52,350 nt of DNA from Comamonadaceae bacterium. GTDB taxonomy: Bacteria > Pseudomonadota > Gammaproteobacteria > Burkholderiales > Burkholderiaceae_C. Where the stretch lies: the NCBI GenBank assembly GCA_947371915.1, contig CANBRM010000008.1, forward strand, positions 1-52,350, given 5' to 3'. Below the pieces are notes generated by a model. It had not been told where the DNA came from. It ran no database searches and saw only the letters and a list, made by a program, of their open reading frames with translations. Positions 4,704-6,728 of the stretch are shown here, one piece after another. The position numbers and the translations under genes were made by a program. The first letter of the stretch is position 1; the number at the start of each line of letters is the position of its first letter.

Positions 4704-5300
4704 ATGGCCCGCCCCAAATCTGCCACTCACGACCTCAAGCGCGACGAAATCTTAGACATCGCCGCGCAGTGCTTTGCCGATGGCAGCTACCCCGCCACCA
4801 GCATGAACACCATCGCGGCCGCGGGCGGCACCTCCAAAGCGCGGCTGTATCACTATTACGACAGCAAAGAGGCCATCCTGTTTGACCTGCTCGACCGCTA
4901 CACCCAACGCTTGTTGGCGTTGATCGGCGAGTCGCAAGCCGTGGCTCAGCGCGGCAATTTGGACGACCGTGCCTCGCTGCACGAGTTGATTCGCCGCTTC
5001 TTACAAGAGTACGAAAACTCAGCCACCCGCCATGTGGCGTTGGTGAGTGACACCCAGTTTTTAGGCCCCGAGCAACGCGCCTTGATCGTCGGCCGTCAGC
5101 GCGATGTGGTGGCCGCCTTCACGCTTTTCTTGAAACGCGCCTATCCAGAGCGCTTGACCGCCACCAACCAAACTGCGGTGACGATGATGCTGTTTGGCAT
5201 GATCAACTGGACCTTCACTTGGCTGCGACCTGATGGGCCTATGAGTTACACGGCGTTTGCGGATGAGGTGATTGGGATGTTGGAGCGGGGGTTGGTTTGA
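4704..5300 (+). CDS. TetR/AcrR family transcriptional regulator
   Basis: 198-residue repressor-type protein. The N-terminal helix-turn-helix is clear (about residues 13-60: DEILDIAAQCFADGSY, AAAGGTSKARLYHYY, SKEAILFDLLDRY), matching the TetR family core. The C-terminal ligand-binding domain is all-helical with a WTFTWL stretch near the end and cannot be assigned to a ligand. It follows the cyclo-ligase on the same strand by 26 bp and precedes a 435 bp intergenic space with two large hairpins. Possible targets are the downstream MBL-fold gene or itself; no operator was identified. Confidence 0.9.
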   Translation: MARPKSATHDLKRDEILDIAAQCFADGSYPATSMNTIAAAGGTSKARLYHYYDSKEAILFDLLDRYTQRLLALIGESQAVAQRGNLDDRASLHELIRRFLQEYENSATRHVALVSDTQFLGPEQRALIVGRQRDVVAAFTLFLKRAYPERLTATNQTAVTMMLFGMINWTFTWLRPDGPMSYTAFADEVIGMLERGLV

Positions 5301-5340
5301 GTTCTTTGTCCTTGTCCTGATTGCTTTTGCTTTCGCTTCG

Positions 5341-5423
5341 ACAGGGTGAGCGGGCGGGGCGCTTGGCGGTTCCTTCGCTTCGCTCTTAACGTCACCGCCA
5401 AGCGCCCCGCCCACTTACCCTGT
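5341..5423 (-). repeat. Large hairpin element, copy 1
   Basis: A 30-base arm at 5341-5370 (ends in GGCGCTTGGCGGT) pairs with 5394-5423 (begins ACCGCCAAGCGCC); 28 of 30 positions are Watson-Crick. The 23-base loop 5371-5393 reads, on the minus strand, GACGTTAAGAGCGAAGC followed by GAAGGA. The same loop occurs inside copy 2 in the opposite orientation, while the arms are unrelated. There is no T-tract, so it is not a typical terminator, though it could affect transcripts of tetR. Confidence 0.85.
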
Positions 5424-5546
5424 CTACGGATTTGTGGGGGGATCAGGGGCAGAGATTGCGCTTGTGGTTTTGTTGCAATGTTCGTGGCCGTTTAGTGTGA
5501 GAACTATTCAGAACTTCATGTTTGGACTGTTGCGCACGCCCACACT

Positions 5547-5625
5547 GCAAGGGATGAGGCACAGGCCCCACGGCGACGTTAAGAGCGCAGCGAAGGAGTC
5601 GTGGGGCCTGTGCCTCAGCCCTTGC
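5547..5625 (+). repeat. Large hairpin element, copy 2
   Basis: A 26-base arm at 5547-5572 (contains GAGGCACAGGCCCCACG) pairs with 5600-5625 (CGTGGGGCCTGTGCCTC onwards), 25 of 26 matching. The loop 5573-5599 contains GACGTTAAGAGCGCAGC then GAAGGA on the plus strand, 22 of 23 identical to the loop of copy 1. Same core, different stem and opposite orientation point to a family of dispersed elements. Confidence 0.85.
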
Positions 5626-5735
5626 CCCCAAGAAGTGCCTTAAACACCAAGCCATAAGTAATTCACCATTAAATAACCAATTTCGTTTAGTTAAACTTCT
5701 AGCAGCAAACAAACCCCAACAAGGAGACACAAAAC

Positions 5736-6728
5736 ATGTCCACCGCACCCACCAAAGCCTTTGCCAGTCAAGCCGACTTGACCGAGAAAAAAATCAAGTT
5801 TGAGCAGCTCAGCGCCCACTGCTGGGCCTACACCGCCGAGGGCGACCCCAACTCTGGCGTCATCATTGGTGACAAATTCATCATGGTCAGCGACGCCACG
5901 GCCACACCTGCTTTGGCTCGTGACTTAATCGCCAAAATCCGCACCGTCAGCGACAAGCCCATCAAATACGTCTTGCTCACCCACTACCACGCGGTGCGCG
6001 TGTTGGGTGCCAGCGCTTATGCCGCCGAAGGCGCGACCGAGATCATTGCCAGCCGTGGCACGTATGAGCTCATCGTCGAGCGCGGTGCGCAAGACATGCA
6101 AAGCGAGATCGAGCGCTTTCCCCGTTTGTTCCAAGGTGTCGAGAGCATCCCCGGTTTGACTTGGCCCACCATGGTCATCGGCGACGGCAAGCCCGGTCGC
6201 CAAGGTTCGTTGACGATTGACCTCGGTGGTGTGAAGGTTGAGATTTGGCACCCCGGTTCAGGCCACACCCGTGGCGACACCATTGCTTGGATCGAAGAAG
6301 AAAAAGTGCTGTTCAGCGGCGACTTGGTGGAGTACGAAGCCGGTGTTTACACCGGTGACGCCCAACTCGAAGAGTGGCCCGCCACGTTGGAAGCGTTGAA
6401 AGCCTTGAAAGCCGAGGCCATCGTGCCCGGACGCGGCGAAGCCATGAAGGGCAACGCCGATGTGAACAAAGCGTTGGATTACACCCAGCGCTGGGTGGAA
6501 ACTTTGTTCCGTTGTGGCAAAGAAGCCGCCGCACAAGGCCTCGATTTGAAAGCCTCCATGGAACTCACGCGCAAAAGCATGGACCCCATTTTTGGCCATG
6601 TGTTCATCTACGAACACTGTTTGCCTTTTGACGTGAGCCGCGCTTACGACGAAGCGCAAGGTATCAAAAACCCACGCATTTGGACTGCACAGCGCGACAA
6701 AGAAATGTGGGCTGCGCTGCAGGCGTAA
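5736..6728 (+). CDS. MBL-fold hydrolase-like protein with altered metal motif
   Basis: 330-residue metallo-beta-lactamase-fold protein, probably cytoplasmic (no signal peptide). Family landmarks are LLTHYHAVRVLGA at 81-93, GHTRGD at 176-181 and FSGDLVE at 193-199. The usual HxHxDH is here H83-Y-H85-A-V87-R88: the Asp and third His that bind the second metal are replaced. H177 and D196 are kept, so a mono-metal enzyme or a changed activity is possible. The C-terminal roughly 100 residues after VPGRGEA are helical. A GGAG ribosome binding site precedes the ATG. It stands alone between two hairpins and a terminator-like stem-loop. Substrate unknown. Confidence 0.85.
   Translation: MSTAPTKAFASQADLTEKKIKFEQLSAHCWAYTAEGDPNSGVIIGDKFIMVSDATATPALARDLIAKIRTVSDKPIKYVLLTHYHAVRVLGASAYAAEGATEIIASRGTYELIVERGAQDMQSEIERFPRLFQGVESIPGLTWPTMVIGDGKPGRQGSLTIDLGGVKVEIWHPGSGHTRGDTIAWIEEEKVLFSGDLVEYEAGVYTGDAQLEEWPATLEALKALKAEAIVPGRGEAMKGNADVNKALDYTQRWVETLFRCGKEAAAQGLDLKASMELTRKSMDPIFGHVFIYEHCLPFDVSRAYDEAQGIKNPRIWTAQRDKEMWAALQA

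Follow-up and report, generated by a model that had tools for sequence, protein, structure and literature searches.

A bacterial palindrome family with a conserved tip and a freely changing paired stem in Comamonadaceae genomes

Two large hairpins lie between a TetR-family regulator gene and a metallo-beta-lactamase-fold hydrolase gene in the window, the whole 52-kb stretch of DNA that was analysed (Table 1). The arms of hairpin 1 are 31 nt long and 94% complementary around a 23-nt loop; those of hairpin 2 are 26 nt long and 96% complementary, with 27 nt in between, of which 5575-5597 form the core. They are the two longest inverted repeats of the window (arms up to 120 nt apart). When folded as DNA, hairpin 1 scored z = -9.7 and -9.6 on its two strands and hairpin 2 scored z = -7.9 and -7.8, and no shuffled sequence was equally stable in either case. 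The cores at 5371-5393 (+) and 5575-5597 (-) differ at 1 of 23 positions, being reverse complements otherwise, and the core pattern with up to 3 mismatches matched the window twice, against 0.00 times expected from 100 shuffles. These results bear out the first-pass annotation, which had described two large hairpins here with loops alike at 22 of 23 positions in opposite orientation. Its statement that the arms are unrelated holds for hairpins 1 and 2, which are alike at 7 of 28 positions, but not across 18 representative hairpins hand-picked from a larger set, whose arms agree at 42.5% of positions versus 27.7% when shuffled and include some subfamilies.

Table 1 Features at the hairpin locus of the window, with coordinates counted from its first nucleotide.
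Feature	Position	Strand	Details
TetR-family regulator gene	4704..5300	(+)	Upstream neighbour
Segment missing in relatives	5301..5660	.	Both hairpins and linker, from tetR stop codon to hydrolase promoter region (boundaries set by eye, approximate); aligned with 7 hairpin-free relatives
Hairpin 1	5340..5424	(-), strand read as folded	Arms 5340-5370 and 5394-5424, head 5371-5393; from inverted repeats, DNA folding, matches of covariance models R1 and R2, and polarity rule
Head of hairpin 1	5371..5393	(-)	GACGTTAAGAGCGAAGCGAAGGA on minus strand
Hairpin 2	5544..5628 (span of R1 match)	(+), folded strand	Arms 5547-5572 and 5600-5625; pairing reaches head via one G.T
Head of hairpin 2	5575..5597	(+)	GACGTTAAGAGCGCAGCGAAGGA
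Metallo-beta-lactamase-fold hydrolase gene	5736..6728	(+)	Downstream neighbour

GC-rich hairpins after genes would suit chance pairing or plain intrinsic terminators, an explanation that we find scarcely credible. A rule that takes loops of 3-8 nt only found no terminator-like site in 5250-5780, no T-run adjoining the arms of either hairpin was evident by eye, and the fold z-scores stand against chance. The explanation was refuted by the recurrence and pairing of core matches elsewhere.

The exact core is present in three copies in the genome of the window (G000, contig C8), which form hairpins with separate stems, and in four copies in the relative G011, where three of the four stems are the same as those of window-genome copies. 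It was found in 2 of 61 near genomes, with one more genome at 3 mismatches, and a contig scan gave a named match only in Limnohabitans sp. B9-3. Limnohabitans is a member of the Comamonadaceae. A relaxed core matched 34 places in 17 of the 84 genomes of the genus. With a hairpin called when at least 15 of the 20 innermost arm positions were Watson-Crick paired, 29 of these places were hairpins, three (none paired in this way, all with one core mismatch) were not, and two could not be judged owing to a contig end or Ns. Twenty-six hairpins aligned without stem gaps as 31 pairs around a 22-23-nt loop, and covariance model R1 was built from this alignment, in the orientation complementary to the strand now taken as folded. 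R1 matched at least 30 of the 84 Limnohabitans-genus genomes, a minimum since 54 candidates were scored per genome, with up to 18 matches each, a number that may be too high where palindromes match both strands (e.g. G496:C1:79366-79450). Its matches led to further head classes.

Of 394 family genomes, a broader covariance model, R2, matched at least 45; when 394 genomes from across the order were sampled, it matched at least four, all of the same family as the window (12 candidates scored per genome in both scans, so that presence counts are minima). Since conservation lies in the tip and not in the stem, identity searches see little beyond the tip, and the covariance model finds the palindromes in at least 24 of the 141 genera sampled. 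When 399 family genomes were scanned for the core, allowing up to 3 mismatches, 11 places lay outside the genus, each of them with the full 3 mismatches, versus 18 for a reversed control. Viral contigs gave no match to three head patterns or to one arm pattern, the latter also a trial, on a single arm, of whether arms are spacer-like. Plasmid records matched in 33 cases, and the 30 matches listed all have E of at least 1. These results indicate that the window hairpins are members of a bacterial palindrome family with a conserved tip and a freely changing paired stem. Whereas a conserved stem is the usual basis for sorting bacterial palindromic repeats, here the conservation is reversed. Many copies with differing paired stems, named in the first-pass annotation as what would support a mobile element, were found, and the notion of private stems survives in part: stems do differ between copies, but they are diverged relatives with subfamilies and a weak positional consensus. 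We also considered that the core might be confined to Limnohabitans, which holds for the exact core only, as the covariance models match other genera. In G011, two hairpins lie about 11 and 46 bases from the ends of contigs C20 and C21, as if hairpins broke the assembly, and copy numbers from draft genomes may be too low.

Read along the folded strand, each copy runs from a variable stem through (G)GC, GAC or GAT with a few bases, a small hairpin, GGA or TGA, and GC(C) into the other arm. The design of the head is thus GAC..small hairpin, often C(GNA)G..GGA, closed by GGC/GCC, on a hypervariable stem of about 30 bp. Arms measure 20-47 nt with a median of 30, and 143 of 147 fall in 24-36. Four of 150 loop candidates had no assigned head, and among the others a few heads are misassigned (the aataaacgagc class, L062, L219, L189 and L162 at 2185). 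In 148 hairpins, the small apical hairpin can be read as C(GNA)G 76 times (GAA 40, GCA 32, GTA 4) and as C(AAA)G 7 times. Other apical readings comprise 24 of one head class, alternatively C(GCA)G, and tips such as CTGG-TACC-CCAG. Among DNA loops, those of the form C(GNA)G stand out by their stability. Short DNA hairpins of this sort are termed extraordinarily stable in the available part of a published paper.

Pairing of the stem was examined in the 26 core-selected and orthologous copies, where 90.9% of cells were paired versus 57.8% when shuffled and 282 cells were double-changed versus 85; this covariation vanished when the pairing partner was slid. In a wider alignment of 28 hairpins 95.9% of cells were paired, a value that is no independent proof since these hairpins were chosen for good pairing. 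Ortholog pairs showed 357 double versus 214 single changes in stem pairs overall, and 42 versus 55 with one pair for each of 20 groups; ortholog and pair counts here take in related loci, and the 20 groups partly share ancestry. These results showed that the sequence of the stem is free while its pairing is kept. Recognition of the loop, as had been proposed from the window alone, would lead one to expect such conservation of the head alongside varying stems.

The mismatches left in the stems have a polarity. In the first 26 hairpins the TCCT strand carried 40 A.C, 8 G.T and 33 other mismatches, hence 40 G.T and 8 A.C on the opposite strand. Over 145 hairpins the folded strand had 268 G.T and 62 A.C (271:68 over 148 before three non-members, L119, L189 at 292 and L219 at 2679, were dropped). 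Split by detection orientation, the ratios were 147:29 and 121:33; the hairpin finder is kinder to G.T than to A.C, but the second value comes from opposite-strand copies, where this effect reverses. Selection by R1 also works against the G.T result, because that model was built on the strand opposite to the folded one. One-sided changes in 20 stem groups comprised 41 G.T, 3 A.C and 11 other (p 1.6e-9), or 39:2 without the one group that consists of a pair of adjacent hairpins from one genome (L193).

Polarity was then compared across gene contexts, which came from a simple ORF finder whose intragenic class includes ORFs that may not be genes. With codirectional neighbours, G.T:A.C was 42:5 where the folded strand was antisense (n = 24) and 23:4 where it was sense (n = 15); the intragenic values were 21:4 (antisense, n = 6) and 20:4 (sense, n = 12). 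Between convergent genes the ratio was 108:35 (n = 54), and in other contexts 57:16 (n = 37). The two members of inverted pairs gave 50:18 and 54:12. A mutation bias linked to transcription or to the replication fork should reverse between pair members, which it does not, and we therefore read the polarity as selection on one folded DNA strand. These results showed that pairing is kept on one fixed strand per head and that polarity tracks the head, not transcription. The polarity points to folding of single-stranded DNA; antisense RNA is a possible basis too, as tolerance of G.T also fits RNA. A fixed-strand G.T signature independent of transcription offers a way to test from sequence if a hairpin is under selection as single-stranded DNA or as RNA, and REPs raise the same question.

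Placement brings in an RNA-based explanation, in which the hairpin is a structured element of mRNA 3' ends whose head is bound by an RNA-binding protein, so that the message is protected or ended and spread is secondary. Many of the hairpins are no more than about 100 nt away from an ORF end. Among 30 close pairs, orthologs included, 26 are (-)(+), 3 (+)(-) and 1 (-)(-), so that 29 of 30 are inverted; the main (-)(+) pairs have gaps of 26-203 nt, and convergent genes flank 12 of the 22 (-)(+) clusters for which both neighbours were resolved. For single hairpins, no orientation is clearly preferred. Closeness to ORF ends and the convergent pairs would fit an RNA element, as would the G.T pairs, which are typical of RNA helices and which Di Nocera et al., in the part of their paper available to us, read in this way for REP stems. 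However, relative to codirectional neighbours the paired strand is no less often antisense than sense (24 and 15 copies), inverted pairs place heads on opposite strands at one site, and one intragenic copy, in uvrA of G496, has an antisense head with 4 G.T and 0 A.C. Moreover, Rfam 15 gave no match above the gathering score for the whole window or for 12 loci of other genera, and 13 loci of the genus gave 14 weak matches, all below gathering and mostly to miRNA models. We consider an RNA element unlikely.

Gain and loss were followed at the window locus. A head-blind search for inverted repeats found hairpins there in 7 of 30 genomes, on two branches of the hydrolase gene tree. The best tree, and the bootstrap range, have two gains or losses, and the well-supported branches alone force only one. 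In 7 hairpin-free relatives the tetR end is followed by the hydrolase promoter region with no such segment in between. An extra hairpin of about 120 nt is present in G010 and missing in four relatives (G477, G460, G004 and G488), and since G010 is nested among these, gain is likelier than repeated loss. The empty sites of the four relatives have neither the core nor either arm. At this clearest gain, the unit inserted whole, with both arms and head. No target-site duplication was evident by eye at this one site, and no close donor copy was found in the G010 genome (89% complete), so that the movement was not caught together with its source. The nearest stem relative, 85% identical over 66 nt, is in G460.

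Hairpins also lie in frame inside uvrA and valS; one locus of each gene was identified by NCBIfam, and the others by shared flanks, by eye. The uvrA site was compared in 15 genomes, six from the matches and nine chosen from the genus. The head is in sense in ten, of which G003 and G490 have hairpins that look partly decayed by eye, and inverted in one (G496); the centre is deleted in one (G381), two have no hairpin (G006, G439), and one has a different palindrome (G477). Both arms are missing in G006 and G439. G381 retains one arm in full and the outer end of the second, with no core, and its two flanking pieces match those of G470 at 96% and 99% identity; we read this allele, from the alignment, as a probable deletion. 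All five valS hairpins are in sense. They lie at about the same position in five genomes, which belong to three genera (g141, g111 and g67; loci L149, L266, L148, L282 and L290), and their coding arms differ but stay paired. In uvrA of G477 (L299), the different palindrome is of the GGGGTCAG type and lies in frame at the site that holds the hairpin in relatives, so this site is an insertion spot common to two palindrome families. A second uvrA hairpin with a different head is apparently present in G000 (the window genome), G011 and G496 (L162:2185-2262, L169:820-907 and L222:765-852).

Inversion in place was seen at three checked loci: uvrA of G496, L080 versus L081, and L201 versus L214. In the last two comparisons the flanks align and the stem type is the same, with the head inverted; further loci are candidate inversions, some of which are pair partners instead. 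The flipping could be ordinary recombination between the arms. Filled, flipped, centre-deleted and empty alleles of a single uvrA site, and one holding another palindrome, make these dynamics directly testable.

The idea of a mobile element, raised from the window alone, agrees with the presence or absence of whole units at alignable sites. The mechanism suggested with it, in which an inserted core is joined by an inverted-repeat copy of its flank while template switching keeps the arms alike, fared worse. Template switching that equalises arms is known as quasipalindrome correction. Such copying would explain stems that differ between copies yet are near perfect, and concerted change of the arms would mimic covariation. 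It predicts empty sites that lack the core and one arm; at the hydrolase locus both arms are gone, as they are in uvrA of G006 and G439, and one allele has the predicted look, that of G381, whose single arm without a core could be compatible with a copied flank. The copying model does not fit the best-resolved gain, that of G010. Separate loci also have an arm consensus in common, and the G.T bias of one-sided changes on one strand (41:3) is not predicted by copying alone. Self-templating is in our view improbable.

Among known systems, the REP/BIME/REPIN palindromes (GTAG and CGTC super-families) are similar in many respects. In the published descriptions available to us, these too are small intergenic palindromes with inverted dimers, convergent or codirectional neighbours, intragenic copies including uvrA, and G-T pairs in the stem. 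According to the same material, REP stems are 5-13 bp long and define the family, and a GTAG or CGTC foot is present. The hairpins here resemble REPs in their inverted dimers (29 of 30 close pairs), whereas their stem is about 30 bp and variable, their head is conserved and they have no foot tag. Arms of 20-47 nt that are 42.5% alike across 18 loci are not the short conserved stem of a REP, and at the 5' base GTAG was found in 8 of 140 and CGTC in 6 of 140 (1 and 5 at the 3' base; at least one hairpin in this set, L119, lies outside the family). The hairpin family is therefore not a GTAG/CGTC REP by the defining features of that group.

These results bear on the proposal that the hairpins are REPs of a resident RAYT (TnpA-REP) transposase, an ordinary REPtron with lengthened stems. 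A RAYT-like gene (NF047646, E up to 0.001) is present in 69 of the 84 genus genomes, in 34 of them above the curated cut-off; it occurs in 28 of 30 R1-positive and 41 of 54 R1-negative genomes (p 0.07). A hairpin lies about 1 kb away at 2 of 30 fetched RAYT loci, with a third case (G031) known from coordinates, and the inverted pairs and intragenic copies are REP-like. On the other side, 28 of the 30 loci have no such hairpin in the fetched stretch, a different palindrome, GGGGTCAG, lies near RAYT in three of the 30 (L119, L132 and L140), and the GTAG foot is rare. RAYT as a partner is widespread and weakly linked to the hairpins, and we regard this proposal as quite unlikely.

Rickettsia palindromic elements (RPE), compared by their description in the sources available, also lie within coding genes, like the in-frame insertions in uvrA and valS; the family here is mostly intergenic, has a conserved head and variable stem, and belongs to another bacterial family. 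The beta-proteobacterial repeat element BRE (Hot et al. 2011, PMC3110155) is, in the available part of that paper, about 90 bp long, intergenic with some intragenic copies, found by >70% identity, often tandem, and reported in Comamonadaceae genomes, with copy numbers of 8-22 for Bordetella genomes and of 29 for one Polaromonas. Its size, placement and occurrence in Comamonadaceae are like those of the hairpin family, from which BRE is set apart by description only. In IS200/IS605 and TnpA-REP systems, as far as the available accounts go, a folded single-stranded DNA palindrome is read by an HUH enzyme; by analogy, the hairpin family may work alike, with a linked enzyme that is putative only. 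The literature searched, including the RepRanger paper, contained in its available parts no description of a hairpin family with conserved head and variable stem. This agrees with the earlier remark that no named family has this design, although REP/BIME and RPE palindromes are close kinds. Variable stem and conserved head appear to set the family apart from REP, while the small mobile palindrome as such is already known.

The hairpins are best read as a REP/RPE-like mobile palindrome whose head would be recognised as single-stranded DNA by a putative enzyme. We lean, with modest confidence, towards a non-autonomous mobile palindrome family that works as folded single-stranded DNA. A strand exposed in replication or repair would snap into the hairpin, and a putative DNA-binding recombinase or nuclease would read the head, that is, the GAC/GGA internal loop and the small apical hairpin. 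This enzyme would need the stem only as a duplex, and stems could then drift via G.T intermediates; insertion and flipping of the units may be due to this enzyme as well, or to recombination between the arms. A further-reaching reading is tentative, and we would sooner doubt than accept it: a distinct class of single-stranded DNA mobile palindromes in many genera of one family, with a putative recombinase that reads only the tip, whole-unit insertion, switch-like flipping, in-frame entry into housekeeping genes and a stem selected for duplex alone.

Two further motifs were noted at the stem bases and flanks. A AGGGGAGT motif is common to the 3' flanks of L106, L109, L160, L184, L188, L197, L210 and L218, and in another subset of hairpins GGAGCGA or GAAGCGA adjoins the stem base; each is a possible subfamily foot.
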